This document shows positions 192 to 20,018 of a stretch of DNA of 20,912 nucleotides, one piece after another; position 1 is the stretch's first letter; each line of letters starts with the position of its first letter. The stretch is from Lachnospiraceae bacterium UBA6403 (GTDB taxonomy: Bacteria; Bacillota; Clostridia; Lachnospirales; Lachnospiraceae). The notes below the pieces were generated by a model, which was given only the letters and a program-made list of their open reading frames with translations, was not told where the DNA came from and ran no database searches. The stretch is taken from the NCBI GenBank assembly GCA_002437435.1, contig DJPV01000039.1:1-20912 (forward strand). The letters are read 5' to 3'. The position numbers were made by a program, and so were the translations under genes.

Positions 192-2003
192 ATGCAGGGT
201 GAAAAATTTACATTAATGCAATATAATATCAGTGCAATTTTAGGACTCATTGAAGCTGGAAGTTTTGTTATTCCAGAAATACAGAGACCGTTTGTGTGGA
301 AAAAATCCCAAGTTAGAGATTTGATTGATTCTCTTTATAATGGATATCCTACAGGATATATAATTACTTGGAAAAATCCGGATGTGCATACAAAAGATGG
401 CTCAATAGCGAGTGGAAAACATGTGTTAATTGATGGACAACAGAGGATTACTGCATTAATGGCTGCTGTTTCTGGACTGGAAGTGTTAGATGAGGATTTT
501 AATAGAGAGCGTATAAAGATTGCATTTAATCCACTTGCTCAAGAGGTTGATAAAAGATTTGCAGTGCAGGATGCATCACATCTTAAGGATAAAAAGTGGA
601 TTCCGGATATAGCTGAGTTATTTGATAATGATTTTGATCCATTTGATTTTTCTGAAAAGTACTGTGAAGACAATCCGGGGGTTCGAGAAAAAGAGATTCA
701 TAGTGCAATAATGAATTTAAAAGGTATTGCAAATAGGCAAATAGGAGTTATTGAATTAAGTCATACATTGGGAATTGATGAGGTTACAGAAATATTTATT
801 CGAATCAACTCAAAGGGTACTGCATTAAGTCAATCGGATTTTGTTATGTCTAAAATGGCATCGGATACAATTCATGGAGGAAATACTTTACGTAAAGTTG
901 TAGATTACTTTTGTCATTTAGCCGTTAAACCTGATTTTTACCCACAAATGATAAAGGATATTGAGTTTGAAAAGACGGAATATGCGTCTAAGATTAAATG
1001 GTTAGAAAAAGACAATGAAGATATATATGATCCTGATTATAATGATATGCTTCGTGTTGCATTTATGTGTAGTTTTGACAGAGCAAAACTTGCAGATTTA
1101 GTTAGTTTGCTTTCTGGACGGGATTTTGAGACCCGCGAATTTAAGGATGAAATAATAGAAGATTCATATAATAAATTGAGTGAAGGAATAAAGCTTTTTA
1201 TTAATGAGCATAATTTCAAACAATTTGTATTAGCCATTAAAGGTGCAGGGTATAAATCAAGTAAACAGCTTAATTCGCAGATGACACTCGATTTTGCATA
1301 CATGCTCTATTTGAAATTATCAAAAGAATCGACTATCCCTCATGATCAGGTAAAACACCATGTACAGAAATGGTTTGTACTATCTACATTGACAGGAAGA
1401 TACGTTGGTTCTCCTGAATCAGTCATGAGTAGGGATATAAGACTTATTAATGAAAAAGGGTTTATAAATTTCTTTAAGGAAGTAGAAGCTTCAGTTTTAT
1501 CAGATACATTTTGGAATATTACACTGCCACAAAATCTTGAGACAACGTCAACAAATAGCCCTGCGTTTAATACTTTTCTTGCGGCACAAATTAATCTTAA
1601 CTGCAATTCATTATTTATGCATGGAACAATGATATCTGATTTAATTAACATATCGGGAGATGTACATCATATTTTCCCCAAAGCATATCTAAAAAATAAT
1701 GGTGTGGATACGAAGGGGAGATATAATCAAGTTGCAAACTTTACATATCTTGATACGCAAGTAAATAAAGCAATAAAAGATGATGCACCTAATGTATATT
1801 TTGGAAAAGTAATTGAACAATGCAAAAATAAAAGTATAGCATTTGGCAATATAGCAGATAGAGAGGTTTTAGTGAAGAATCTTGAGGAGAACGCTATACC
1901 AGAGGATGTTGTAGAAATGACTGTCGAGAGTTATGATATTTTTTTAGAAAAAAGAAGAAAATTAATGGCAAAGTTAGTTGAAAAATATTATAAGAAACTG
2001 TAG
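192..2003 (+). CDS. DUF262 / HNH nuclease protein, GmrSD-like
   Basis: This 603-residue protein has an N-terminal DUF262 (ParB/sulfiredoxin-like) domain and a C-terminal HNH-type nuclease domain, the arrangement of GmrSD-type modification-dependent restriction enzymes. DUF262 marks are PEIQRPFVWK (residues 28-37), the nucleotide-site motif IDGQQRITAL (80-89) and the later FIRINSKGTALSQ block. The HNH part shows HHIFPK at 492-497, then N516 and N525 in ANFTYLDTQVNK, matching the DUF1524-like pattern. In the family, DUF262 binds or hydrolyses NTP to control cleavage of modified phage DNA; a defence role here is inferred from family and context. The ATG at 192 is preceded by AGAGGGAGA at a normal distance. 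The gene is A+T-richer than the housekeeping genes to its right, which suggests horizontal acquisition. The DUF3800 gene follows about 200 bases downstream. Confidence 0.85.
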   Translation: MQGEKFTLMQYNISAILGLIEAGSFVIPEIQRPFVWKKSQVRDLIDSLYNGYPTGYIITWKNPDVHTKDGSIASGKHVLIDGQQRITALMAAVSGLEVLDEDFNRERIKIAFNPLAQEVDKRFAVQDASHLKDKKWIPDIAELFDNDFDPFDFSEKYCEDNPGVREKEIHSAIMNLKGIANRQIGVIELSHTLGIDEVTEIFIRINSKGTALSQSDFVMSKMASDTIHGGNTLRKVVDYFCHLAVKPDFYPQMIKDIEFEKTEYASKIKWLEKDNEDIYDPDYNDMLRVAFMCSFDRAKLADLVSLLSGRDFETREFKDEIIEDSYNKLSEGIKLFINEHNFKQFVLAIKGAGYKSSKQLNSQMTLDFAYMLYLKLSKESTIPHDQVKHHVQKWFVLSTLTGRYVGSPESVMSRDIRLINEKGFINFFKEVEASVLSDTFWNITLPQNLETTSTNSPAFNTFLAAQINLNCNSLFMHGTMISDLINISGDVHHIFPKAYLKNNGVDTKGRYNQVANFTYLDTQVNKAIKDDAPNVYFGKVIEQCKNKSIAFGNIADREVLVKNLEENAIPEDVVEMTVESYDIFLEKRRKLMAKLVEKYYKKL

Positions 2004-2090
2004 ATTCGTCTACAAAGGACTTTGATTATATTTGATATAATATTTATTGTATTAACAAATTAATTATTTAACTTGAACAGGATGCATTTT

Positions 2091-2196
2091 TATGATATCA
2101 TCATCATACGATATAAGTGTGGCAAGTCACATTTCTGGGCTGGTCGGAAGACCCAGGTCCAACCTAATTAGGCGGGGAAACTCCCCGCCATTTTTT
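2091..2196 (+). ncRNA. structured RNA leader upstream of DUF3800 gene (candidate DUF3800-associated RNA)
   Basis: The 206-base gap between the DUF262 and DUF3800 genes carries a compact G+C-rich stretch in otherwise A+T-rich DNA. It holds GTG/CAC arms around GGCAAG (2117-2130), then CTGGG (2135-2139) facing CCCAG (2152-2156). An alternative nested helix is GGTC-GGAA-GACC (2142-2153) with a GNRA tetraloop. Next come the palindrome CCTAATTAGG (2163-2172) and a seven-pair terminator hairpin. Published comparative genomics (Weinberg and colleagues, 2017) described several conserved 'DUF3800' RNA motifs found near DUF3800 genes. The position matches, but I cannot assign a particular motif class by eye. 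The 5' boundary is a guess. Confidence 0.55.
2171..2196 (+). terminator. intrinsic terminator or attenuator just before the DUF3800 gene
   Basis: GGCGGGG (2171-2177) pairs perfectly with CCCCGCC (2183-2189) around the loop AAACT, and a run of six T follows at 2191-2196. Only four bases then separate it from the GGAGGTGG ribosome-binding site. Either a short RNA ends here, or readthrough into the DUF3800 gene is controlled at this point. Confidence 0.8.
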
Positions 2197-2209
2197 ATAC
2201 GGAGGTGGA

Positions 2210-2890
2210 ATGAGGGAGTTAAGTATTTTTGTTGATGAATCTGGAGATTTTGGAAGTTTTGAGTCACATGCACCGTATTATATAGTGATGATGGTATTAC
2301 ATGATCAAAGGGTAAATATAAGTGAAAATATTAGAAAATTGAATGAATCATTAGGATATCTGGGATATGCAGATGAACAAGCGATTCATACAGAGCCGTT
2401 GATCAGACGCGAGACGCCTTATCGGGAATATGCACCAAATGAAAGACGTGCCATCTTTTCAAAATTATATTATTTTACATTAAATTGTGATATACAATAT
2501 AAATCATTTGTGTTTAAAAAAGATGAATATAAAGATATTTTTAAATTAGAAGCAAAAATGGCAAAAGAAATATCATTGTTTATTCGAGAAAATCTTTCTT
2601 ATTTTCAAAGCTTTGATAAGGTGATTTTGTATTATGATAATGGACAACATGAATTAAATAGAATTTTAAATACAGTACTTGCAACAGAACTTACGGATTA
2701 TGATGTTAGAAGAGTGCAACCCAATGATTATAAACTTTTCCAAGTTGCTGATTTGATATGTACCTTGGAACTTTTGGAACAAAAAATTAAGAATGCACAA
2801 ATGACTAGATCAGAAACCTTAATATTTCATAGTAAAAGAGATTTAAATAAGGATTTTCTAAAAGGAATACATAAAAAACAATTTTTATAA
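2210..2890 (+). CDS. DUF3800 family protein
   Basis: This 226-residue protein belongs to the DUF3800 family, which is predicted to have an RNase H-like fold. The hallmark N-terminal motif FVDESGDFG spans residues 7-15 (acidic residues D9, E10, D13). A second acidic strand ILYYDNGQ includes D143, and the family's C-terminal QVADLICTLELL includes D181. These acids are the likely metal-binding set, by analogy with RNase H-fold nucleases. The biochemical activity of the family is not firmly established, and no function is claimed. The start at 2210 has a strong Shine-Dalgarno, GGAGGTGG at 2201-2208. The unusual feature is the structured RNA and terminator immediately upstream, and the co-location with a GmrSD-like gene. 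The gene shares the A+T-rich composition of the DUF262 gene. A defence or RNA-linked toxin role is possible but only inferred. Confidence 0.85.
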   Translation: MRELSIFVDESGDFGSFESHAPYYIVMMVLHDQRVNISENIRKLNESLGYLGYADEQAIHTEPLIRRETPYREYAPNERRAIFSKLYYFTLNCDIQYKSFVFKKDEYKDIFKLEAKMAKEISLFIRENLSYFQSFDKVILYYDNGQHELNRILNTVLATELTDYDVRRVQPNDYKLFQVADLICTLELLEQKIKNAQMTRSETLIFHSKRDLNKDFLKGIHKKQFL

Positions 2891-4961: not shown

Positions 4962-5723
4962 ATGTCAGAGAAACAGTTATTAAATGTAAAGAATTTGTAT
5001 GTAGATGTAGAGGAGAAGCAGATCCTTCACGGTGTGGATCTGTCGATCGGAAAAGGAGAGACACACGTTCTCATGGGACCAAACGGAACAGGTAAATCAA
5101 CACTGGGATATGCGATAATGGGTAACCCAAGATATACCATAAAGAGCGGTGAGATCTGGTTCCAAGGTAAAAACATTACAGAAGAGCCGGTCAATGAACG
5201 TGCAAAAGCAGGAATCTTCTTATCATTCCAGAATCCATTAGAGGTTCCGGGCGTTACCTTAAGTTCATTTATCAGAAATGCATTGGAGCAGAAGACAGGA
5301 AAGAGACAGCGTTTATACGATTTCAAGAAAGAACTGGAGCGTACAATGGAGATCCTTCAGATGGATCCATCCTATGCAGAACGTGATCTGAATGTCGGAT
5401 TTTCCGGTGGTGAGAAAAAGAAGGCAGAGATCTTACAGCTTCTGATGCTGAAGCCTTCACTTGCAATCCTTGATGAGACAGATTCCGGTCTTGATGTTGA
5501 TGCAGTAAGAACGGTATCTGCCGGTATTGAAGAATACCAGAAGAACTGCAAGGGCAGCCTTCTGATCATTACCCACAGCACGAAGATCTTAGAGTCCTTA
5601 TCTGTTGATTATACTCACGTTATGGTAGAAGGTAAGATCATACAGACCGGTGATGCATCTCTGGTAGAGGAGATCAACCAGAATGGATTTGCAAAATACG
5701 AGAAAACAGAGCAGAATCAGTAG
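4962..5723 (+). CDS. sufC: Fe-S cluster assembly ATPase SufC
   Basis: This 253-residue ABC-type ATPase is the energy subunit of the cytosolic SufBCD Fe-S scaffold; it is not a transporter ATPase. Walker A is GPNGTGKST (residues 39-47), the signature is FSGGEKKKAEILQ, and Walker B is AILDETDSGLD with the SufC-typical ETDSGLD. The extended signature with GGEKKKAEILQ is characteristic of SufC. CAGGAGG (4948-4954) precedes the ATG by seven bases. It is the second gene of the rrf2-sufCBDSU operon, 25 bases upstream of sufB, and length is normal for the family. Confidence 0.97.
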   Translation: MSEKQLLNVKNLYVDVEEKQILHGVDLSIGKGETHVLMGPNGTGKSTLGYAIMGNPRYTIKSGEIWFQGKNITEEPVNERAKAGIFLSFQNPLEVPGVTLSSFIRNALEQKTGKRQRLYDFKKELERTMEILQMDPSYAERDLNVGFSGGEKKKAEILQLLMLKPSLAILDETDSGLDVDAVRTVSAGIEEYQKNCKGSLLIITHSTKILESLSVDYTHVMVEGKIIQTGDASLVEEINQNGFAKYEKTEQNQ

Positions 5724-5748
5724 CCTTTGAAAGGAGCATCCGATAGAT

Positions 5749-7155
5749 ATGAAAGAAAAAACATATGTAGAAGACATAGACAGAAATATATATGACTTCA
5801 AAGATGATGAAAAAGATGCTTATAAGATCAAGGCAGGACTGACGCCTGAGATCGTTGAGCAGCTTTCGAAAGAAAAACATGATCCGGCATGGATGCAGAC
5901 CTTCCGTCTGGAATCCCTGCAGATCTATAATAATATGGAAGTACCGGACTGGGGACCATCGATCGAAGGTCTGAATATGGACAACATCGTAACCTATGTC
6001 AGACCAAATACAAATATGAAAGCAAAATGGTCTGATGTGCCGGAAGATATCAAGAATACATTTGAACGACTGGGTATCCCACAGGCGGAGAGAAAATCTC
6101 TCGCGGGTGTCGGAGCACAGTATGATTCTGAACTGGTATATCACAATGTCCGTCAGGAAGTAGCTGAAAAGGGTGTTGTATATACCGATATGGAGAGTGC
6201 ATTAAATGGCGAATACGCAGATATGGTAAGAAAACATTTCATGAAGCTGGTTCGCCCGAATGACCACAAGTTTGCAGCCCTTCATGGTGCTGTATGGTCA
6301 GGCGGTTCCTTTGTATATGTACCAAAGGGCGTATCCGTAGAGATTCCGTTGCAGTCTTATTTCCGTCTGAATGCACCGGGAGCCGGACAGTTTGAACATA
6401 CACTTATCATAGTCGATGAAGGTGCGGATCTTCATTTCATCGAGGGCTGTTCTGCACCAAAATATAACGTGGCAAATCTCCATGCCGGATGCGTGGAATT
6501 ATTTGTCGGTAAGAATGCAAAACTTCGTTATTCTACGATCGAGAACTGGTCAAAGAATATGTATAATCTGAATACAAAACGCGCAGTTGTAGAAGAGGGA
6601 GGAACGATCGAATGGGTTTCCGGTTCTTTCGGATCACACGTATCCTATCTGTATCCAATGAGTATCCTGAAAGGAAAGGGTGCGAAGATGGAATTTACCG
6701 GTATCACATTTGCCGGAAAAGGACAAAATCTGGATACCGGAGCAAAGGTTGTTCACAGCGCACCGGATACCAGTTCTTACATTAATACAAGATCTATTTC
6801 AAAGGATGGCGGTATCAGTACCTTCCGTTCTTCCGTTGTAGTAGCAAAGGAAGCAGAGAATGCCAAGGCGGCAGTATCCTGTCAGTCACTGATGCTGGAT
6901 TCCATTTCAAGATCCGATACGATCCCTGCGATGGACATCCGTACCAGAAAGGCAAATGTAGGACATGAGGCACAGATCGGCAGTATCAGTGATGATGCAG
7001 TATTTTATCTGATGTCCCGTGGTATGAGCGAGGAAGATGCCAGAGCTTGTATCGTCAGTGGATTTGCGGATAACGTATCAAAGGAACTTCCACTGGAATA
7101 TGCTTTGGAGATGAACAATTTGATCCGTCTGGAAATGAAGGGCAGTATAGGTTAG
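5749..7155 (+). CDS. sufB: Fe-S cluster assembly scaffold protein SufB
   Basis: This 468-residue SufB is the core scaffold on which clusters are built with SufC and SufD. The parallel beta-helix core contains the conserved GAVWSGGSFVYVPKGV and HTLIIVDEGADLHFIEGCSAP blocks. C378 in AVSCQSLMLD and E407 in GHEAQIG align with the functionally essential C405 and E434 of E. coli SufB, and the 29-residue spacing is the same. The C-terminal helices (MSRGMSEEDARACIVSGF) are typical. The AAGGAG site lies somewhat far (about 12 bases) from the ATG. The stop codon overlaps the Shine-Dalgarno of sufD, indicating translational coupling. Confidence 0.97.
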   Translation: MKEKTYVEDIDRNIYDFKDDEKDAYKIKAGLTPEIVEQLSKEKHDPAWMQTFRLESLQIYNNMEVPDWGPSIEGLNMDNIVTYVRPNTNMKAKWSDVPEDIKNTFERLGIPQAERKSLAGVGAQYDSELVYHNVRQEVAEKGVVYTDMESALNGEYADMVRKHFMKLVRPNDHKFAALHGAVWSGGSFVYVPKGVSVEIPLQSYFRLNAPGAGQFEHTLIIVDEGADLHFIEGCSAPKYNVANLHAGCVELFVGKNAKLRYSTIENWSKNMYNLNTKRAVVEEGGTIEWVSGSFGSHVSYLYPMSILKGKGAKMEFTGITFAGKGQNLDTGAKVVHSAPDTSSYINTRSISKDGGISTFRSSVVVAKEAENAKAAVSCQSLMLDSISRSDTIPAMDIRTRKANVGHEAQIGSISDDAVFYLMSRGMSEEDARACIVSGFADNVSKELPLEYALEMNNLIRLEMKGSIG

Positions 7156-7168
7156 GAGGAAATGAGCA

Positions 7169-8263
7169 ATGGACAAGAATACAATCAATATTAATAAACT
7201 TCCATCCAAGACATGGTACTGGCTTCATATGAATGACACAAAGGTTTCATGGAATCCTGATATAGCACCATGTAAGGTGACGGTAGAGGAAACATTTGAA
7301 GATAAAGAGACAAACAGCCTGATATCCAGCGCTGCAATAACGGAGTTTGAGGCTGTTGAGAGTGGAGCAGGCAGAGAGGCTGATCCGATCTTTGCAGATG
7401 CAAAGACAGAAAAAACAGTCCTGACTGCTTCAGACAAAGGCGCAAAGGCAACGATCCGTCTGGCTGTTGATGGAACGACAGCAGAGTCCGCTGCGGGTGC
7501 ATGTTATCTGACAGCGGAAGAGGGCACGGATACGACCGTGATCGAGACATTTACAAAGAAGAGTGAGCAGGCAGGTTCACTTGCATACCGTACGATGATA
7601 CAGGCAAAGAAGGACAGCTATGTCCGTCTGGTACAGGTATTTATGCAGGACGAAGGACAGACCCTGTTAAATGATATCGGATGCGTCTGTGATGAAAATG
7701 CAAAGTTCGATATCCTTCAGATCTTTATCGGAGAAGGAGATTTATATAACGGAATCCGTACAGATCTTAAGGGTGCAGGCGCAGATACTCAGGTTGAGAT
7801 CGGTTACCTCGGACAGAAGAAACAGAAGATCGATGTGAACCTGATCGTAAATCATTTTGGTAAGAAGACAAAATGTGAGATTCAGGTAGACGGAACTTTA
7901 AAGGATGCAGCAGAGAAAGTGTTCCGCGGAACAATTGATTTCAAAAACGGCGCATCCGGATCCACAGGTGCAGAGACAGAAAATGTACTCCTGCTTGGTG
8001 ATGATGTTATCAATAAGACGATTCCGATCATTCTCTGTGCAGAGGAGGATGTAGAAGGTTCTCACGGTGCAACGATTGGTGAACTGGATGAGGAAACATT
8101 ATTCTATTTTGAATCAAGAGGCATCGACAAGGAGACCGCGGAGGATATCATGACCCGTGGCAAGTTCGAGATGTTATATCGTCACATAGGAGATGAGCAG
8201 ACACAGAAGCTGGTAGAAGTACAGCTTGCGGAGGTAATGGCAGATGACAGAGAAGAATTATAA
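7169..8263 (+). CDS. sufD: Fe-S cluster assembly protein SufD
   Basis: This 364-residue SufB paralogue is the partner subunit of the SufBC2D complex. Its N-terminal half is divergent, but the C-terminal family hallmark SHGATIGELDEETLFYFESRG is present. H299 in that motif corresponds to the conserved SufD histidine (H360 in E. coli) implicated at the SufB-SufD interface where the cluster forms. The ATG at 7169 follows AGGAGGA (7154-7160); a nearer ATG at 7162 is out of frame. The gene ends 20 bases inside sufS, a coupled overlap. Assignment rests on the C-terminal motif, the position directly after sufB and the overall beta-helix-like pattern. Confidence 0.93.
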   Translation: MDKNTININKLPSKTWYWLHMNDTKVSWNPDIAPCKVTVEETFEDKETNSLISSAAITEFEAVESGAGREADPIFADAKTEKTVLTASDKGAKATIRLAVDGTTAESAAGACYLTAEEGTDTTVIETFTKKSEQAGSLAYRTMIQAKKDSYVRLVQVFMQDEGQTLLNDIGCVCDENAKFDILQIFIGEGDLYNGIRTDLKGAGADTQVEIGYLGQKKQKIDVNLIVNHFGKKTKCEIQVDGTLKDAAEKVFRGTIDFKNGASGSTGAETENVLLLGDDVINKTIPIILCAEEDVEGSHGATIGELDEETLFYFESRGIDKETAEDIMTRGKFEMLYRHIGDEQTQKLVEVQLAEVMADDREEL

Positions 8264-9461
8264 AGAGGATTTTCCATTATTACAGACAAATAAAACCATT
8301 TATATAGACAATGCGGCTACAGCACAGAAGCCGGCCGTTGTAATTGAAGCAGAGAAGCGTTTTTATGAAGAAAGCAATGCGAATCCGCTTCGTGGCTTCT
8401 ATCCGCTGAGTCTTGCAGCAACAGAAGCATATGAGGATGCCAGAAAAGTTGTGCGTGATTTTATTCATGCGGATTCTGAAAAAGAGATTATCTTTACAAG
8501 GAATACAACAGAGAGTCTGAACCTTGTTGCATACAGCTATGCATGCAGTCATTTGCAATCAGGAGATGAGATCGCAGTCAGCATCATGGAACATCACAGC
8601 AACATTCTCCCATGGCAGATGGCAGCAAGAATGACAGGTGCAACTGTCCGGTATCTGAACTGTGAAAAGGACGGGGCTTTGACAGATGAGACACTTGCAG
8701 CAGGAATCAATGAGAAGACAAAGCTTGTAGCGATCGGACAAGTATCCAATGTTCTCGGTTGTGTGAATCCGATCAAGAAGATCGCAAAGCTTGCACATGC
8801 AGTTGGCGCAGTCATTGTAGTAGATGCAGCACAGAGCGCACCGCATATGCCGATTGATGTCAAAGATCTGGATGCAGATTTCCTTGCATTTTCCGGTCAC
8901 AAATTGATGGGACCGATGGGGATAGGTGTGTTATATGGAAAAGAAGCATTACTGGAAGAGATGCCACCATTTATGACAGGTGGAGAGATGATCCAGTCGG
9001 TAACGACAGAAGGAGCGGTATGGGCTGAACTTCCACATAAGTTCGAGGCCGGAACCGTAAATGCAGCCGGAGCAGCCGGACTTGCAGCCGCAATTTCGTA
9101 TATTAATAAGATCGGTTTAGAGACAATCGAGCAGAGAGAACTGGAACTGACCAGACATGCGATGGAAGGACTAGCAAAAATCCCTCATGTTCATGTGATC
9201 GGATCGGAAGATCCTGCAAACCATACCGGTATTGTGGCATTTACGATCGACAACGTACATCCACATGATGTCAGTGAGATCATGGCAGCAGATGGTATCG
9301 ATGTTCGTGCCGGCCACCATTGCGCACAGCCATTACTTACTTATCTGAAGGTGTATAATACAACAAGAGCCAGCTTTATGTTCTACAATACGATAGAAGA
9401 AGTCGATGCATTTGTAGATAGTGTTGCAAATGTCAGAAGGAGAATGGGATATGGAGAATAG
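8244..9461 (+). CDS. sufS: cysteine desulfurase SufS
   Basis: This 405-residue type II (SufS/CsdA-like) PLP enzyme removes sulfur from L-cysteine as a persulfide and yields alanine. The PLP lysine is K220 in SGHKLMGP, and the catalytic cysteine is C360 in RAGHHCAQPLL. MEHHSNILPW and YIDNAATAQKP are standard. The short RAGHHC loop is the type II form that needs a sulfur acceptor, here supplied by SufU encoded next door. Start 8244 lies inside the end of sufD with GAGGT at 8231-8235 upstream. It overlaps sufU by 11 bases. Confidence 0.97.
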   Translation: MTEKNYKEDFPLLQTNKTIYIDNAATAQKPAVVIEAEKRFYEESNANPLRGFYPLSLAATEAYEDARKVVRDFIHADSEKEIIFTRNTTESLNLVAYSYACSHLQSGDEIAVSIMEHHSNILPWQMAARMTGATVRYLNCEKDGALTDETLAAGINEKTKLVAIGQVSNVLGCVNPIKKIAKLAHAVGAVIVVDAAQSAPHMPIDVKDLDADFLAFSGHKLMGPMGIGVLYGKEALLEEMPPFMTGGEMIQSVTTEGAVWAELPHKFEAGTVNAAGAAGLAAAISYINKIGLETIEQRELELTRHAMEGLAKIPHVHVIGSEDPANHTGIVAFTIDNVHPHDVSEIMAADGIDVRAGHHCAQPLLTYLKVYNTTRASFMFYNTIEEVDAFVDSVANVRRRMGYGE

Positions 9462-9873
9462 AAGTTTTTATAATGAGATCCTGACGGAACACAATATCCG
9501 GCCGGAATTCAAACATGATCTTCCGGATGCGAACATCGTACTGGAAGGTGTAAACCCGAACTGTGGAGATGATATCTGGTTGAAGTTAAAGGTAGAAAAC
9601 GGAATCATCGAAGACGGAGCATTTGTCGGAGATGGTTGTGCGATTTCACAGGCATCCGCTGATATCATGCTTGGCATGATCGTCGGAAAGACCGAAGAAG
9701 AAGCCTTAAAACTTGGAAAGCTTTTCCTAAAGATGATACAGGGCGAAGCGACTGACGAGGAGATCGATGAACTGGAAGAAGCATCCGCCTTAAAAGACAT
9801 TTCCCATATGCCCGCCCGTGTAAAATGCGCGGTTCTTGGCTGGCACACCCTGGAGGAAGCATTAAAGAAATAA
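9451..9873 (+). CDS. sufU: sulfur acceptor / SUF system protein SufU
   Basis: This 140-residue Zn-dependent sulfurtransferase accepts the persulfide from SufS and hands it to the scaffold. Zinc and transfer residues are C38 and D40 in NPNCGDD, C63 in GDGCAIS and C126 in VKCAVLGW, matching B. subtilis SufU C41, D43, C66 and C128. The ATG at 9451 follows AGAAGGAGA at good spacing; an in-frame GTG at 9421 would add ten non-family residues, so the ATG is used. It overlaps sufS by 11 bases, is the last gene of the operon, and is followed four bases later by a terminator. Confidence 0.95.
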   Translation: MENRSFYNEILTEHNIRPEFKHDLPDANIVLEGVNPNCGDDIWLKLKVENGIIEDGAFVGDGCAISQASADIMLGMIVGKTEEEALKLGKLFLKMIQGEATDEEIDELEEASALKDISHMPARVKCAVLGWHTLEEALKK

Positions 9874-10149: not shown

Positions 10150-10974
10150 TTATAATACTTTCGAAAGGAAATCCTTCAGTCGAGGATTCTTCGGATTGCC
10201 AAAGAATTCTTCCGGCGTACCGGTTTCAAGAATCTGTCCCTCATCAATAAAGAGGACTTTATTGGCAACCTCCTTTGCAAATCCCATTTCATGAGTAACC
10301 ACGATCATGGTCATTCCTTCTTTTGCAAGATCCTTCATCAGATCGAGAACTTCTCCAACCATTTCAGGATCAAGAGCAGAAGTCGGTTCATCAAATAAGA
10401 TCACATCCGGATTCATAGCAAGTGCACGGATAATGGCAACTCGCTGTTTCTGACCACCGGATAAAGTAGAAGGATATACATCTGCTTTATCTTCCAGACC
10501 GATTCGTTTCAGAAGTTCTTCTGCCTTTGCTCTTGCCTCGGCAACGATCTGAGATTTACTTGTTGTGATCTCTATTTTCTCCTGCTTTTCTTTGCGGAAC
10601 AGGTTCGTAAACGGAAGCATGCGATTGTGACGCTTCGCTTTTTTCAGATCCTGACAACGCACCAGTACAGGAGCGAGCATGATATTCTGAATAACAGTTT
10701 TGTTATTATACAGATTGAAATGCTGGAATACCATTCCCATGTGGCGACGGTGGATGTTGATATCAACCTTTGGGTCTGCAATATCGACACCATTGAAGAT
10801 GATCTGACCGCCGGTCGGGTCTTCCATACAATTTAAACAGCGAAGAAATGTACTTTTACCAGAACCTGAAGGACCGATTACAACCATTATATCGCCTTTA
10901 TCGATTGTGACATTGATGCCTCGTAAAACTTCATTGTCACCAAAGTGTTTTTCAAGATTAATGACGTCTATCAC
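10150..10974 (-). CDS. polar amino-acid ABC transporter ATP-binding protein (GlnQ/HisP type)
   Basis: This 274-residue ATPase subunit carries Walker [10 protein letters not shown] (residues 34-42), Q-loop FQHFNL (83-88), signature LSGGQKQR (171-178), Walker [13 protein letters not shown] (191-202) and the switch VVTHEMGF. The family is normally about 240 residues. The extra length is a basic segment of about 30 residues (roughly 115-145, [18 protein letters not shown] and on) inserted in the helical subdomain ahead of the signature. It starts with GTG at 10974 and overlaps the permease gene by 17 bases; no nearby ATG fits. It energises uptake of an amino acid, probably polar, with the permease and lipoprotein encoded upstream on the same strand. 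Confidence 0.93.
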
Positions 10975-11668: not shown

Positions 11669-11705
11669 GAAATATCCTTTCGACTATTTATCACCAGTAT
11701 TTATC

Positions 11706-12578
11706 TTACTGCATAGAGTTTAATGCTTTTGTAATAGCTTCAGCAGGAGCTGAATCGATGATAACGTAATTTAAGTTTCCGTTTAATAAATCCTGAACTG
11801 CAAGTGAACCGTTCTTGTAACCTGTAGATGTCATCTTAAGACCGGCAAATCCCCAGTCATCATCACCTTCGCAGTAGAACTGTCCGGTTGTACCTGTCTG
11901 GAAACCGATCTTGCTGCTTGAATCCTTAGCGTTAAGGATTGCATTTACATCATCAGCAGTCTTGCAGTCATCAAATTCTGTGTTGTCAGATGGAACGATC
12001 AGTTTCTGGGAAGCCTTGTAGTAAGGGTCTGAGAAAGCTACATATTCTTCACGGTCCGGTTTGATTGTAAGACCAGCCATAGCGATATCACATTTCTGCT
12101 GACCAACGGAGAGACATACAGCATCGAAATCCATATTCTGGATAACCAGTTCCTTACCAAGTTTGTCAGCAAGTGCCTTAGCGATCTCCATATCAATTCC
12201 GTAGTAGTTCTCACCCTTTGTATACTCAAATGGTTCGAATGCAGCGTTTGTTGCTACAACTAACTGATCCTTGCTTGAATCCAATGTAGCTGATTCAACA
12301 GCAACAGGCTCTCCGTCACCGAAGTAGTGGTTGCAGATCTCTTCAAATGTACCATCTGAATTCATATCTGCGATAAACGTATTAACTTCTTTTAATAAGT
12401 CAGGCTGTGTTTTGTCAACACCAAAAGCGTATTCCTCATCTGTGAGGTCGATCTCGATAACTTTGGCTGTCTTCTTGTCAGAAGATTTGCTGTCATCATT
12501 TTTGCTTCCACATGCTGTTAATGCAGTCATAGCCAGAGCTGCAGACATAGTAATTGCTAAAAATTTTTTAAGTTTCAT
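11706..12578 (-). CDS. amino-acid ABC transporter substrate-binding lipoprotein, apparently circularly permuted
   Basis: This 290-residue lipoprotein has signal peptide MKLKKFLAITMSAALAMTA and lipobox LTAC with C23 as the lipidated residue. The SBP_bac_3 fold is recognisable but its order is rearranged. In ordinary members the mature protein begins near LVVATNAAFEPFEY and ends with a lobe-I segment of the type LTEEEYgiavkKgn..LL..vN..l.....GT...I...yF. Here that terminal segment comes first (residues about 38-87: LTDEEYAFGVDKTQPDLLKE then VNTFIADMNSDGTFEEICNH). A linker (about 88-104) follows, then the normal start LVVATNAAFEPFEY (106-119), FSDPYY and GTTGQF. The protein stops shortly after VIIDSAPAEAI, exactly where the moved segment should follow. 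Ligand residues (R of KPDREEY, D of VIIDSAP) remain. The reading frame is intact and its operon position is normal, so it is probably functional. Confidence 0.92.
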   Translation of the reverse strand: MKLKKFLAITMSAALAMTALTACGSKNDDSKSSDKKTAKVIEIDLTDEEYAFGVDKTQPDLLKEVNTFIADMNSDGTFEEICNHYFGDGEPVAVESATLDSSKDQLVVATNAAFEPFEYTKGENYYGIDMEIAKALADKLGKELVIQNMDFDAVCLSVGQQKCDIAMAGLTIKPDREEYVAFSDPYYKASQKLIVPSDNTEFDDCKTADDVNAILNAKDSSSKIGFQTGTTGQFYCEGDDDWGFAGLKMTSTGYKNGSLAVQDLLNGNLNYVIIDSAPAEAITKALNSMQ

Positions 12579-13810: not shown

Positions 13811-15034
13811 ATGAAGAAGATTTTATATTTTATAAAAAGCGAAACGGTTTTATCAATAGCGATCATGCTGGCAGTAGTATCAGCTTTTTTTGTAGTCCCT
13901 GATCGGGAATATATTTCATATATTGATTTCCGGACATTGGCGATCCTGTTCTGCCTTATGGGAATTGTCACGGGATTGAGGAATATTGGTGTGTTTGATA
14001 AATTGGCAGAACGGCTGTTAGTAAAGGTGCATGGGATCGGGGGAGTAACGGTGATCCTTGTATGCCTGTGTTTCTTTATGTCGATGTTTATAACAAATGA
14101 TGTATCACTAATTACATTTGTGCCGTTTACAATTATTTTAATGAAGAAACTGAACCCGGATGCCGATGGCAGATGGATGTTAAAAGTAATTGTCATGCAG
14201 ACGATCGCAGCAAACCTTGGCAGTATGCTGACACCTGTTGGCAATCCTCAGAATCTCTATCTGTATGGGAAAGCAGGTATCAGTGTTGCGGGGTTTTTAA
14301 AGATCATGCTGCCGTATACCGTCTGCGCATTTGCCTTGTTAATGGGATGGATCGGTCTGGCTGTCATAGTTCGAAAAGGAAAGGTGGACTATGAGGGAAA
14401 GACAGAAGTGAAGGAAAATAAGGATTTGGAATCTAAGGCAGATGAAGCTTTGCCGAAAAGAAAGACATTTATGTCAGAGATTTCTGATTCAAAAGGGATT
14501 CAAGATAAGTCAGGATGGGTTGAAAAACTTGTAGTATATATTTCCCTTTTTGCAGTGAGTCTGCTTGCGGTTTCGCATATCCTTCCGTACGGTGTGCCTT
14601 TTATTCTGGTTCTTTTATATCTGATCCTGCGAGATCGGAAGATCCTGACACAGGTTGATTATTCCCTGTTGTGTATTTTTATTGCACTGTTTATATTTAT
14701 TGGTAATCTCGGACGCATCCCGGCATTCAGCCAGATGCTTTCAAATATATTGACCGGACGGGAAGTCGTCACTTCGGTAATTGCAAGTCAGGTAATGAGT
14801 AATGTTCCGGCGGCAATTCTGTTATCTGGATTTACAGACCGTATACGGGAACTGGTGATCGGCACAAATCTTGGAGGACTTGGAACCTTGATAGCATCAA
14901 TGGCAAGTCTGATCAGCTTCAAATATGTTGCAAAGGAAAACCGGTCGTTCCGTGGCAGATATTTTCTGGAATTCACAGTTGCAAATGTTATTTTCCTTCT
15001 TATAATGCTGATCCTTTATCGTTTGCTTTCTTAG
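13811..15034 (+). CDS. ion transporter superfamily permease (ArsB/NhaD/SLC13-like)
   Basis: This 407-residue multi-pass membrane protein has the two inverted halves typical of the IT superfamily. The first half carries FITNDVSLITFVPFTI and MLTPVGNPQNLYLYG; the second carries SNVPAAILLSGF and the related NLGGLGTLIASMASLISFKY. These paired TND/SNVP and TPVGNPQN/GTLIASMAS motifs form the re-entrant hairpin substrate sites. A charged, poorly conserved cytoplasmic loop (about residues 195-235) joins the halves. The substrate (anion, dicarboxylate, arsenite or Na+/H+ exchange) cannot be decided, because no ars or metabolic genes lie nearby. ATG 13811 follows AAGAGGGT. The last 35 bases overlap the 3' end of the convergent TetR pseudogene. 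Confidence 0.88.
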   Translation: MKKILYFIKSETVLSIAIMLAVVSAFFVVPDREYISYIDFRTLAILFCLMGIVTGLRNIGVFDKLAERLLVKVHGIGGVTVILVCLCFFMSMFITNDVSLITFVPFTIILMKKLNPDADGRWMLKVIVMQTIAANLGSMLTPVGNPQNLYLYGKAGISVAGFLKIMLPYTVCAFALLMGWIGLAVIVRKGKVDYEGKTEVKENKDLESKADEALPKRKTFMSEISDSKGIQDKSGWVEKLVVYISLFAVSLLAVSHILPYGVPFILVLLYLILRDRKILTQVDYSLLCIFIALFIFIGNLGRIPAFSQMLSNILTGREVVTSVIASQVMSNVPAAILLSGFTDRIRELVIGTNLGGLGTLIASMASLISFKYVAKENRSFRGRYFLEFTVANVIFLLIMLILYRLLS

Positions 15035-15603
15035 CATAATCAAGCAGTACAGCAGGAATGGAGGTATGAATGATGATCGAATAATATTCGATAAGTTGCT
15101 CTTTCTTGTAAGCATTGGGATGCTGTGCAAGCTGGATCAGCATACCGGCCATTCCTTCGGTGAAAAGGTTGCAAAGAAAGTTCAGCAAATCATCTGATAC
15201 CCGGATGTCTAGTGTTTCTTCCATAGAAATAATAATTTTTCTTGTGATGCTGATAAAATCCTGATAAAAGAAGCTTTTCAGAACATCCCTGCCAAGAGAG
15301 TCGTAGGTGCAGCTTATTATAAAAGCATTGTGTTGAACATAATCAAAAACAAAGTTGATCACATCGGTATAATCATTGATCAGGTCATATTTTTTTACAA
15401 TGTCGATGGCTTCCTGTTCAAATATCCATTTTAATAAAGATATATATATCTTCAAAATGATAATAAAAGGTTTTGCGGTTTACATTACATTCGCGGATGA
15501 TCTCACTGACGGTTATTTTAGAAAACGGTTTGCGCGTCATCAGTTCTTTTAATGTATCTGCCAAAGCCTTTTTTGTATTATAAGAAACTTCTTCGTTGGT
15601 CAT
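15000..15603 (-). pseudogene. TetR/AcrR-family regulator, frameshifted at an (AT)5 tract
   Basis: One TetR-type gene is split between two frames. The N-terminal frame starts at ATG 15603 (GGGAGGA ribosome site upstream) and encodes the helix-turn-helix, with TVSEIIRECNVNRKTFYYHF-like sequence, then runs into a stop soon after FEDIYIF. The rest continues in another frame from about 15450 to 15000, as LLKWIFEQEAIDIVKKYD through a C-terminal ligand-binding domain ending AKKANDKGSAL. The switch lies at an (AT)5 run (15440-15449) inside a 16-base palindrome. Adding one AT unit, or losing one base, restores a single reading frame of about 200 residues. Both halves look well preserved, so the lesion is recent, a reversible slippage event or a sequence error. 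It is divergent from the MMPL operon, its most likely target. Confidence 0.85.
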
Positions 15604-15971: not shown

Positions 15972-18008
15972 ATGGAAAAGTTTTACAGAAAAATTGTAAA
16001 TCATCCAAAACTCATAATTGCGATATTTGCAGTCCTGTTTGTCCTGTGCGCGATTGCAAAACAGTTTGTATCCGTTGATTATGATATGAATGATTATCTG
16101 CCGCCAGACAGTGCATCGACAACAGCACTGGATAAAATGAATGAGGAATTTGACGGTGGCATACCGAATGCCAGGGTAATGATACGGGATGTGAGTATCG
16201 CGGAAGCTCTGGACTATAAGAAACAGTTAGAGGCAGTGGATGGGGTAACAGATGTTACGTGGCTGGACGATGCCGTATCCATCACGGTTCCGCTTGAAAC
16301 ACAGGATCAGGAGCTGGTTGAAAACTATTATAAGGATGGAAATGCCTTGTATTCCATAACTATTGAAGAAGAAAAACGAAGGGATGCTGTTGCGGATATC
16401 AGGGAGATTATTGGAAGAGATAATTCAATGACCGGAAGTGCGGTATCTTCTGCTGTAGCAACGGAAAGTACCGTGAGTGAAGTCAGGAGGATCACTGTAT
16501 TTGCCGTATTATTTGTAATCGTTGTGTTACTGCTTACGACAAATGCGTGGGCAGAATCGTTTGTTGTACTGGTTGGTCTGGGTGTTGCGATCATAATAAA
16601 TGCCGGATCAAATCTGATATTTGGCGAGATCTCATTTGTTACAAACGCAGCAGGAAATATCTTACAGCTTGCGGTATCACTTGATTATTCGGTATTTCTG
16701 ATACACAGATTTACCGAATGCAGGAGAAACCATTCCAATGCGAAGGATGCAATGGTAGAGGCTCTGTGCATGTCGACATCTTCGATATTATCGAGTGGAC
16801 TGACTACGGTTATCGGCTTCCTTGCACTTTGCCTGATGCAGTTCCAGATCGGACCGGACCTTGGCAGAGCGCTTGCAAAGGGTGTTGCGATCAGTCTGGT
16901 CACGGTATTTATATTTATGCCGGTGGTTATTCTGTACACATATAAATGGATCGAGAAGACAGAGCATCGTTCATTGATGCCATCATTTAGAGAATTTGGG
17001 AAGTTTGTAACTAAGATCATGATTCCTATGGTTATCTTATTCTTTATGGTGATTATTCCGGCTTATCTGGCATCAAACTCAAACAGTTTTTATTATGGAG
17101 CTTCGCATTTATTTGGGACAAATACACAGCTTGGCAGAGATACCCGGACGATTGAGGATGCATTTGGGAAGAAGGATACTTATGTGTTACTGGTTCCTGA
17201 TACAGACCGGTCAACGCAGGTGGATTTATCCGATGCCCTGCATGATATCAATGCGGTGAGTGGAATCATCTCCTATGTAGATACAGTTGGAGCGGAGATA
17301 CCGGAAGCATATCTGGATACGGAGACACTCTCAAAGCTGACATCTGGAGAATATACAAGAATGGTACTTACGGTAGATGCAGCATATGAAGGTGAGGAGA
17401 CCTTTGATCTGGTTGAGAAGATCCGGGATACCGCAGAACAGTACTATCCGGGTGAGTGGTATCTGGCAGGCGAAGGTATATCTACCTATGATCTGATGGA
17501 TACGGTCACGGCAGATATGGTTAAGGTGAATCTGGTAGCGATCGCAGCAGTATTTATCGTATTACTGTTTACGATGCGTTCGGTCGCACTTCCTATTATA
17601 TTGGTGCTTGGCATCGAGACTGCGATTTGGTTAAATCTGTCGATTCCGTATTTTACCGATTCCTCGATATTTTATATCGCATACCTGATCATCAGTTCTA
17701 TTCAACTTGGAGCAACCGTTGACTATGCGATCCTGTTCACGGAGCGCTATAAGGAATGTCGTCAGACCATGGAAAAGAAGGCGGCAGTCATTGAAACAAT
17801 CGCAGTAACCGCAGTATCGATCCTGACATCGGGAAGTACATTGACTGTTGTAGGCTTCCTGCTTGGTAAGATATCAACGCATGGACTGTTGTCGCAGCTT
17901 GGTTATTTCCTTGGAAAAGGAACCTTATGCTCCCTTGCGATCGTGTTCTTTGTATTGCCGGGACTGTTATATCTGTTTGACCGGACATTTGTAAAAAAGA
18001 AGAAATAG
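15972..18008 (+). CDS. MMPL-family (RND superfamily) transporter
   Basis: This 678-residue exporter of the MMPL branch has two six-helix halves. Each has one N-terminal helix, an extracytoplasmic domain (about residues 35-165 and 370-500), then five helices. The proton-relay signature appears in both fourth-helix positions: AVSLDYSVFLIHRF with D238-Y239 and GATVDYAILFTERY with D584-Y585. The family moves lipids, amphiphiles or drugs using the proton gradient; the substrate here is unknown. AAAGGAG precedes the ATG by about ten bases. The next gene, a secreted heptad-repeat protein, starts 12 bases after the stop, so the two are co-transcribed. The broken TetR and the operator-like boxes upstream suggest repression that may now be lost. 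Confidence 0.93.
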   Translation: MEKFYRKIVNHPKLIIAIFAVLFVLCAIAKQFVSVDYDMNDYLPPDSASTTALDKMNEEFDGGIPNARVMIRDVSIAEALDYKKQLEAVDGVTDVTWLDDAVSITVPLETQDQELVENYYKDGNALYSITIEEEKRRDAVADIREIIGRDNSMTGSAVSSAVATESTVSEVRRITVFAVLFVIVVLLLTTNAWAESFVVLVGLGVAIIINAGSNLIFGEISFVTNAAGNILQLAVSLDYSVFLIHRFTECRRNHSNAKDAMVEALCMSTSSILSSGLTTVIGFLALCLMQFQIGPDLGRALAKGVAISLVTVFIFMPVVILYTYKWIEKTEHRSLMPSFREFGKFVTKIMIPMVILFFMVIIPAYLASNSNSFYYGASHLFGTNTQLGRDTRTIEDAFGKKDTYVLLVPDTDRSTQVDLSDALHDINAVSGIISYVDTVGAEIPEAYLDTETLSKLTSGEYTRMVLTVDAAYEGEETFDLVEKIRDTAEQYYPGEWYLAGEGISTYDLMDTVTADMVKVNLVAIAAVFIVLLFTMRSVALPIILVLGIETAIWLNLSIPYFTDSSIFYIAYLIISSIQLGATVDYAILFTERYKECRQTMEKKAAVIETIAVTAVSILTSGSTLTVVGFLLGKISTHGLLSQLGYFLGKGTLCSLAIVFFVLPGLLYLFDRTFVKKKK

Positions 18009-18020
18009 GAGGAAAAGCAA

Positions 18021-20018
18021 ATGAAAGCATATAAGAGTATAATGGCTGTTGCATTGTCTGGTGCACTGGTTTGCAATTATGTCCTGCCGGCATATGCAGC
18101 AGAGGATACACATACAGGAAAAGAAGAAGTTATATATATAGGAACAAATGCAGAAGGTTCAATATCGGATATCAATGTGGTAAATATCTGGGCTGGCGGA
18201 GATGTGAAAGATTATGGCGGCTATACATCTGTTAAGATGCTGACAACGACTGATCCGATCACACAGGATGGAGATACGGTGACATTTTCATCGGATTCAT
18301 CAGAGGTGTATTATCAGGGAACAATGGAAGCATCTACACAGATTCCATGGAAGATTCAGATCACTTATAAACTGGATGGAGAAACGATCGCACCGGAGAA
18401 TCTCGGTGGCAGATCCGGACATCTTGAGATTGATTTCTCAGTTACAAAGAACACCGCATGTAAGGGAACCTTCTATGATGATTATGCCATTCAGGCAACA
18501 TTTGCACTGGATACAAAGAACTGCAAGAATATCGTAGCAGAAGATGCAACGATGGCAAATGTGGGTGCCAATAAACAGTTAAGCTATACCATGCTTCCGG
18601 GCAAGGGTATCCAGACCGTGATCCAGGCTGACGTAACTGATTTTACGATGGATGCAGTATCAATTAACGGAATCCAGATGAATCTGGATGTGAATATCGA
18701 TGACAAAGAACTTATGGACAAAGTTGAGGAGATCATGGATGCCGCAGAACAGTTGAATAAGGGGGCAGGAACATTGCAGGATGGCTTCTACCAGTTGAAG
18801 ACCGGCGGTTTATCTGTGAAAAATGGTGCATCCGATGTGGCAGATGGTGTAGACAGTCTGGATCGGGGAATATCAGATCTTCAGACAGGTATAGGTAATA
18901 TGAAGACTGGACTTGATACACTGAATAAGAAATCATCGGCATTGACAAGTGGATCTTCACAGTTACTGACAGCGCTTACAACATTGCAGACCGAGCTGTC
19001 GGGTATGTCGATCACAACGGAACAGCTTACGGAATTGACAAAGACATCAAGTGAGATCAAGACCGGAATCAGCAATCTTTATTCAGGCGCAACAGAACTT
19101 CAGAAAAATCTGGGATATGCACAATATAAGGCAGCAGTAAAAAGTGCCAGTGGCGGAAGCCTTGATATTGATTCTCTGCTTGCAGGAAATACGCAGGCAA
19201 TAACTACCTTAAATTCTCAGATCACAGCATTACAGGGAAATATACAGGCTATCAAATCGACAAAGGGATATTCTGAGAGCGCGGAGCTTCAGGCACAGGT
19301 TACACAGATGGAAGCTCAGGTTTCAAGTCTTAGTCAGGTTATTACTCTGTTAAAAGGAAATAATGCTGCGATCGGTGGCGTAGAGACATATCTGGATTCT
19401 GTATCAGGTGGTGTAAATACACTGGTCTCCGGCTTAAAGTCGTTGAATGATAATTATAAGCAGTTTGACGCCGCTATCGTAAAGTTATCAAAGAATCTTT
19501 CGAATATGGCTGGCAATATGACCAAACTTACTACAGCAGTTAATAAGCTGGTGAAAGAGTATAAGAAATTAGATAAAGAAATTACTGAATATACAGGTGG
19601 TGTTGCAACGATAGTTGCCGGATACAAACAGATCGTGACAGGAGTATCAACTCTTGCGGCAGGCAGCAGCAAGCTGGTAACAGGAGCCAATTCATTAAAG
19701 AAAGGCACTTCCGATCTATATAATGGAATAGAAAAATTATATGACGGATCATCAGAACTTCAGGATGGCACCTCTGAATTTAATGATAAAACAGATGATA
19801 TGGATACTCAAGTTCAGGATCAGATCGATGAAATGCTGGAATCGATATCTGGTGGAGATAAGAAAGTTGTATCCTTCACATCATCGAAAAATACAAATGT
19901 AGATTCAGTTCAGTTCGTTATCAAAACTACAGCAATCGAGAAACCGGAAAAAGCCGTTACTGAGACAAAGACAGAAACCAAACGGACATTCTGGCAGAAA
20001 GTAAAGGATCTTTTCTAA
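18021..20018 (+). CDS. secreted heptad-repeat protein (YhgE/Pip-like repeats), MMPL partner
   Basis: This 665-residue protein has a Sec signal peptide with probable cleavage after AYA (residue 26). After an N-terminal globular region (to about 230) come blocks of the xxxLxxG heptad repeat known from YhgE/Pip and related proteins: about 245-300 (DGVDSLDRGISDLQTGIGN) and 529-595 (VTGVSTLAAGSSKLVTGANS and on). Coiled-coil-like helices rich in Q, L and S lie between. Unlike YhgE it has no clear C-terminal membrane helix and ends in the short amphipathic TFWQKVKDLF. The mature protein probably lies outside the membrane and associates with the MMPL pump as a long helical bundle. This pairing is inferred from the 12-base spacing. 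GGAGGAAAAG precedes the ATG. No obvious terminator follows. Confidence 0.85.
   Translation: MKAYKSIMAVALSGALVCNYVLPAYAAEDTHTGKEEVIYIGTNAEGSISDINVVNIWAGGDVKDYGGYTSVKMLTTTDPITQDGDTVTFSSDSSEVYYQGTMEASTQIPWKIQITYKLDGETIAPENLGGRSGHLEIDFSVTKNTACKGTFYDDYAIQATFALDTKNCKNIVAEDATMANVGANKQLSYTMLPGKGIQTVIQADVTDFTMDAVSINGIQMNLDVNIDDKELMDKVEEIMDAAEQLNKGAGTLQDGFYQLKTGGLSVKNGASDVADGVDSLDRGISDLQTGIGNMKTGLDTLNKKSSALTSGSSQLLTALTTLQTELSGMSITTEQLTELTKTSSEIKTGISNLYSGATELQKNLGYAQYKAAVKSASGGSLDIDSLLAGNTQAITTLNSQITALQGNIQAIKSTKGYSESAELQAQVTQMEAQVSSLSQVITLLKGNNAAIGGVETYLDSVSGGVNTLVSGLKSLNDNYKQFDAAIVKLSKNLSNMAGNMTKLTTAVNKLVKEYKKLDKEITEYTGGVATIVAGYKQIVTGVSTLAAGSSKLVTGANSLKKGTSDLYNGIEKLYDGSSELQDGTSEFNDKTDDMDTQVQDQIDEMLESISGGDKKVVSFTSSKNTNVDSVQFVIKTTAIEKPEKAVTETKTETKRTFWQKVKDLF

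Follow-up and report, generated by a model that had tools for sequence, protein, structure and literature searches.

Here, we present a comparative analysis of an ABC importer receptor encoded in the window, a 20,912-nucleotide stretch of DNA from the gut-type bacterium Lachnospiraceae bacterium UBA6403 (contig DJPV01000039.1). Sequence comparisons confirm that this protein is an SBP_bac_3 amino-acid receptor with a circularly permuted chain. Our data make it very probable that this permuted, lipid-anchored receptor serves an ABC importer for polar amino acids, that both inter-lobe crossings are kept, and that the permutation arose by tandem duplication.

Segment order of the window receptor

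The receptor is encoded by an ORF at 11706-12578 on the minus strand that has an ATG start and a lipobox with Cys23 and specifies 290 residues. The features of the receptor and its importer are:

12510..12578, minus strand: signal peptide and lipobox (residues 1-23), with Cys23 as the predicted lipidation site, based on sequence; Cys23 is invariant in alignment A1 (59 rows, the window receptor and 58 relatives)
12468..12509, minus strand: linker (residues 24-37) connecting the lipid anchor with lobe 2; residues 23-32 have low confidence in the model
12315..12467, minus strand: moved segment C (residues 38-88), based on matches to the C-termini of AncQR and AncCDT-1 and on secondary structure; it comprises the last lobe-2 strand (38-41), the second hinge crossing, and then the lobe-1 C-terminal strand and two helices
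12267..12314, minus strand: linker (residues 89-104) between what were the C- and N-termini of the ancestral chain, based on sequence comparison
12012..12266, minus strand: segment N1 (residues 105-189), the N-terminal part of lobe 1, with N111, G169, T171, and R176
11709..12011, minus strand: segment L2 (residues 190-290), lobe 2 minus its last strand, with the conserved D275; the new C-terminus follows the last helix
10958..11668, minus strand: permease of the importer (BPD_transp_1), based on Pfam and NCBIfam
10150..10974, minus strand: GlnQ-like ATPase of the importer, its family match divided into two halves by an insert, based on Pfam and NCBIfam

Based on Pfam, the receptor matches SBP_bac_3 (PF00497) with 115.4 bits against a curated cut-off of 26.4, and the only other match up to an E value of 0.001 is a weak one to Lig_chan-Glu_bd. 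The usual segment order of the family, N1-L2-C, is absent from the window receptor, in which the order is C-N1-L2; because SBP_bac_3 is defined by homology, we file the receptor there as a permuted variant. In phmmer searches against PDB sequences, residues 105-284 match residues 11-176 of AncQR (4zv1), i.e., the start and middle of the chain, while residues 38-88 match residues 183-233, its extreme C-terminus. These separate matches in reversed order bear out the original prediction of a natural circular permutation with the moved segment right after the lipobox and linker and the classic mature start at about residue 106. Taken alone, the match of the moved segment is weak (17.3 bits, i-Evalue 0.021). 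With the A1 profile, positions 33-87 align with AncQR residues 179-233 at an i-Evalue of 1e-6 and the first part of the chain is matched at 1.2e-25, again in reversed order; at 1e-6, the match of segment 38-88 is beyond chance. The weak single-sequence match, together with structure searches that leave residues 38-88 uncovered, could also be taken to mean that these residues are an unrelated N-terminal extension that resembles an SBP C-terminus and that the protein is a truncated SBP. We consider this extremely improbable, as it is contradicted by the profile match to the AncQR C-terminus and by the comparison within genus g211, in which permuted and canonical genes have the segment in common at high identity. 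Moreover, a profile of segment C hits the C-terminus of canonical relatives (e.g., L113 at 5e-21 and L158 at 4e-20).

The receptor ends in VIIDSAPAEAITKALNSMQ, and its stop codon is separated from the permease ORF by only 37 bases (11669-11705), leaving no second copy of the moved segment downstream; the expectation that nothing resembling it would precede the permease gene thus holds. The tandem domains SBD1-SBD2 of GlnPQ (6h30) have a C-terminal end, a short linker, and the next N-terminal start in succession, and the window receptor matches across this junction. However, GlnPQ contains two complete canonical domains, whereas each segment occurs once in the window receptor; two complete substrate-binding domains were not found in its 290 residues, and the near-identical gene L082 in G001, the nearest genome examined, has one C, one N1, and one L2 segment. 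G001 also carries a canonical receptor elsewhere in its genome. Canonical receptors of the GlnH/HisJ type, among which AncQR (4zv1), GlnBP (1ggg, 1wdn), and the Thermotoga maritima ArgBP have solved structures, are homologous to the window receptor over all three segments and have the same lipobox, the same ligand-type residues, and the same operon context with a permease and an ATPase. They differ in having the order N1-L2-C and the anchor on lobe 1 instead of, as we infer for the window receptor, lobe 2.

Position of the cut, ligand residues, and the importer operon

The original prediction placed the cut near the second hinge crossover, such that lobe 1 would become contiguous in sequence and a single covalent hinge strand would be left. 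Lobe 1 is indeed contiguous, and the rotated order stands, but the exact site does not, as segment C begins with a lobe-2 strand rather than at the hinge. In AncCDT-3, the small domain spans residues 99-194 and His195 lies at the hinge centre (excerpts of PMC7683729). By way of the AncCDT-1 alignment, and with an inferred numbering offset of 11, His195 corresponds to residue 47 of the receptor; residues 38-46 map to lobe 2, where strand 38-41 is predicted. With residues 38-46 in lobe 2, the cut would lie inside this lobe and both hinge crossings would remain in the chain, which argues against a single remaining hinge strand. In GlnBP, the large domain comprises residues 5-84 and 186-224, the small domain residues 90-180, and the hinges residues 85-89 and about 181-185 (excerpts of PMC13229503 and PMC7400645). 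Thus, both inter-lobe crossings appear to stay covalent in the window receptor and, by homology, the lipid anchor appears to have shifted from lobe 1 to lobe 2. The AlphaFold model of the receptor (pLDDT 88.2, pTM 0.73) contains strands at 38-41 and 49-54 and helices at 59-74 and 77-86. Structure searches with this model align about residues 99-290 only, so that the packing of residues 38-88 rests on homology and model confidence. The best solved-structure matches of the receptor are type II proteins, and the type I (Cluster B) sugar-receptor fold was not found among them.

We suggest that the ancestral ends, both in lobe 1, would have been joined by the linker of about 16 residues, while new ends would have been opened in lobe 2 between the last helix and the last strand. 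Because both inter-lobe crossings would be covalent, ordinary Venus-flytrap closure on the amino acid is expected from the domain mapping, and the closed receptor is predicted to deliver its ligand to the permease with the lipid tether on lobe 2.

Consistent with the expectation of normal ligand residues and a normal operon context, N111, G169, T171, R176, and D275 are invariant in A1 and the permease and ATPase genes are neighbors. The ligand contacts of GlnBP include Asp10, Gly68, Thr70, and Arg75 (excerpts of PMC13229503 and PMC7400645), which correspond to N111, G169, T171, and R176 based on the match to 1ggg (receptor residues 103-209 to residues 3-109, taken as ungapped); D275 would be the amino-group contact by homology to Asp157 of GlnBP. 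The residues typical of SBP_bac_3 members that contact the alpha groups of the amino acid are thus present as G169, T171, R176, and D275, and their conservation suggests that the ligand is probably some amino acid; because of the change from Asp10 to N111, glutamine is not simply to be assumed. In the GlnQ-like ATPase (10150-10974, minus strand), about 35 inserted residues (around residues 105-145) split the family match in two; the homolog in G208 is without this insert, and ATPase lengths vary among relatives of the window operon, many having 240 or 277 residues.

The window also holds other genes. Beside the importer, genes of a SUF iron-sulfur cluster operon lie at 4962-9873 on the plus strand and encode an ATPase, a SufBD core protein, and a class-V aminotransferase (ORFs 7169-8263 and 9421-9873 lie outside the scan). 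At 192-2890 (plus strand), an ORF for a GmrSD_N-type restriction protein is followed by a DUF3800 ORF, possibly a defense pair. An MMPL-family transporter ORF and a 665-residue ORF at 15972-20018 (plus strand) are divergent from an ORF for a TetR_C_8 regulator at 15000-15455 (minus strand).

Relatives, other cut points, and the number of origins

A scan of one genome per species gave 166 confirmed relatives, of which 80 were kept. As anticipated for a survey of Lachnospiraceae, to which most of them belong, all 80 are collinear with the window receptor over at least q35-287 and classify as C-N1-L2 (the alpha order); in 73 of them, a permease ORF like that of the window lies within 400 bases downstream. 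Besides alpha, there is a second order (beta), in which the receptor is sometimes fused to the permease, as well as one additional cut. Among the matches listed in a family survey of 150 genera, alpha is present in at least 16 and beta in at least 29 (in this 150-genome survey, G095:C11 is outside the set of genes fetched, and G081 and G013 are without a clean class); for the surveys of the class and the phylum, matches were cut at 1e-20 and 1e-35. Among the same listed matches, alpha and beta never occur together in 45 genomes, and a Cys in a lipobox-like setting is present in 56 of 57 canonical ORFs. Domain mapping places every cut (alpha, beta, and the third) in lobe 2, and no cut in lobe 1 was found among the classified loci.

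Four beta receptors (L094, L107, L108, and L111; ORFs of 518-537 residues) are fused directly to their permease, and the C-terminal lobe-2 strand of the receptor runs into the membrane domain. We also considered whether the beta proteins have a single hinge strand; when these domain limits are applied to them, the strand QVIIV at their C-terminus belongs to lobe 2 and both crossings are kept. Three further candidates were reassigned: L113 (G054) had a profile match over q2-284, and L160 and L161 were junction-like, but all three are classified as canonical, showing that a match such as that of L113 is no proof of the alpha order. In the genes fetched, stops inside junction-like matches are beta genes in which the match overruns the stop.

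The shared location of all cuts in lobe 2 and the mutual absence of alpha and beta would fit a permutation kept by selection because it moves the tether from lobe 1 to lobe 2 and thereby alters docking or holding near the permease. Tethering is also raised by the authors of the TpMglB-2 study as a reason for a permuted receptor (excerpts of PMC4990184). However, either form serves the same operon in g211, and lipobox-bearing canonical receptors are common in the same taxa; we regard this explanation as possible but doubtful.

With the segments restored to canonical order, a 71-sequence tree (196 columns) gives four changes for alpha (bootstrap 5-95% range, 4-4), and a single alpha clade is rejected (p-AU 4.9e-07). 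A quick tree of 121 rows, which omits 36 of 157 rows as near-copies, gives four alpha changes too; the 71-row tree omits 50 of these 121 rows, including long canonical rows, L228, and L234. The alpha linkers fall into three unlike families, i.e., those of the window lineage, of L121-L128 plus L112, and of genus g211. L112 has the linker of the L121-L128 group, yet its tree neighbor is another canonical gene, L211, indicating that recombination or reversal also occurred. Based on the three linker families and the conflict at L112, the tree and the linkers together suggest about three alpha origins rather than four. The placement of L112 and the disagreement between the permease and receptor trees of g211 could alternatively indicate few permutations followed by recombination or reversal to the canonical order. 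We think this unlikely in view of the three unlike linkers, the match of the g211 alpha linker to the canonical linker of its own genus, and the rejection of a single alpha clade. Genus g207 was considered as an in-place switch, as L245 (alpha) and L247 and L248 (canonical) have common neighbors; L245 adjoins L159, a canonical gene of another family, on the tree, making replacement by transfer as likely as an in-place switch.

Genus g211, the route of permutation, and precedents

Among 85 genomes of g211, 78 contain a single match at a cut of 1e-30, and none contains two; 22 matches run across the junction (alpha) and 56 are of canonical type, starting at q40-68. The 59 genes fetched comprise all 22 alpha and 37 canonical genes, the remaining 19 of the 56 canonical-type matches lying outside this set. 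A matching permease ORF is present at 59 of 59 loci and the ATPase at 54, the other five loci being short; the permeases are 61-86% and the ATPases 71-91% identical to those of G208. In seven g211 loci examined, G208 and G350 (alpha) and G235, G285, and G308 (canonical) have three upstream neighbor families in common, while G409 and G390 (both canonical) have other upstream neighbors. In the g211 receptor tree, alpha forms one clade (96/98) nested among canonical genes, and trees of N1-L2 alone (95) and of C alone (94, with only 48 columns) likewise give a single change. The permease tree, in contrast, splits alpha (three changes; one-clade p-AU 0.0009), which argues that operon genes recombined or that further switches happened.

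Alignment of alpha L238 to its canonical neighbor in doubled form scores 931 (190 identities in 239 residues) compared with 746 in plain order, while doubling gains nothing for a canonical g211 pair (885 and 885). At the junction of alpha L275, KYIPVEG is followed by about 17 residues and then FTTIESGKLIMATN; canonical L295 ends in KYIPAEG and carries FTTIESGKLIMATN after its lipobox linker. Judged from these sequences, the L275 junction looks as expected after a head-to-tail gene duplication with fusion. We propose that the receptor gene was duplicated in tandem, that copy 1 was fused to the post-lipobox part of copy 2, and that the parts made redundant, at the beginning of copy 1 and the end of copy 2, were then lost. 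This origin is read in g211; the window lineage itself is an old alpha form on a long branch. Tandem arrays exist in L163, L183, and GlnPQ, and a fused full-length two-domain intermediate adjoining an alpha clade was not found among the loci examined.

Several loci contain repeated receptor units: L163 (1000-residue frame) and L183 (1149-residue frame) have tandem beta-like units in one chain, and L162 (619 residues) has a beta-like unit behind another receptor-like domain; the domain register of these three arrays is ambiguous. L104 contains two tandem beta receptor genes (ORFs at frame positions 1224 and 2169), the kind of duplication from which permuted forms could arise.

Tandem duplication may also permute genes now and then in a fold that copes, with fixation by drift and no benefit. 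That alpha and canonical forms serve the same g211 operon, with permeases and ATPases of the identities given above, and that several cut points are in use speak for such neutral tolerance. So does the beta model, which can be aligned from end to end, at low sequence identity, to type II folds of canonical order, as expected if the two lobes are similar in topology. Tolerance alone does not predict the lack of a lobe-1 cut, unless lobe 1 cannot be opened, and the alpha clades persist and spread; we put this explanation slightly below even. For the broader proposal that permutation of amino-acid receptors is recurrent in Clostridia-type bacteria, by head-to-tail duplication and, in all cases seen, with opening of lobe 2, and that the permuted form can replace the canonical gene in its own operon, we see an even chance.

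As a precedent, TpMglB-2 (Tp0684; Type Ic/Cluster Bc), a sugar receptor of Treponema pallidum, comes closest: it is a permuted type I receptor that still binds ligand, in which permutation adds a fourth inter-lobe crossing and whose relatives are mostly in treponemes and Gram-positive bacteria (excerpts of PMC4990184). Like the window receptor, TpMglB-2 is a lipoprotein receptor of an ABC importer with a naturally permuted chain. The two belong to different fold classes, TpMglB-2 being a type I sugar receptor and the window protein a type II receptor for amino acids; TpMglB-2 gains a crossing, while the crossing number of the window receptor is unchanged by mapping; and genes related to the window receptor show several rotations. 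Among the matches listed from open-licence PMC literature, we found no earlier case in which a type II amino-acid receptor is naturally permuted, an absence that carries little weight.

Circular permutations in nature are seldom observed close to the event that produced them. In g211, a permuted clade lies inside canonical genes, in the same operon and with a fusion-like junction, which makes it possible to test directly how the permutation came about and how it affects the opening and closing of a well-studied type of receptor. This configuration suggests that one importer can take receptors tethered through either lobe, and the repeated rotations amount to a natural experiment on the function of two-lobed receptors. 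Domain models that match part of such proteins hide the rearrangement. If our interpretation is correct, there would be a class of lobe-2-anchored receptors, some of which, the beta receptors fused to a permease, are held at both ends; what evolves would be where the receptor is attached to the membrane, and not its binding pocket.
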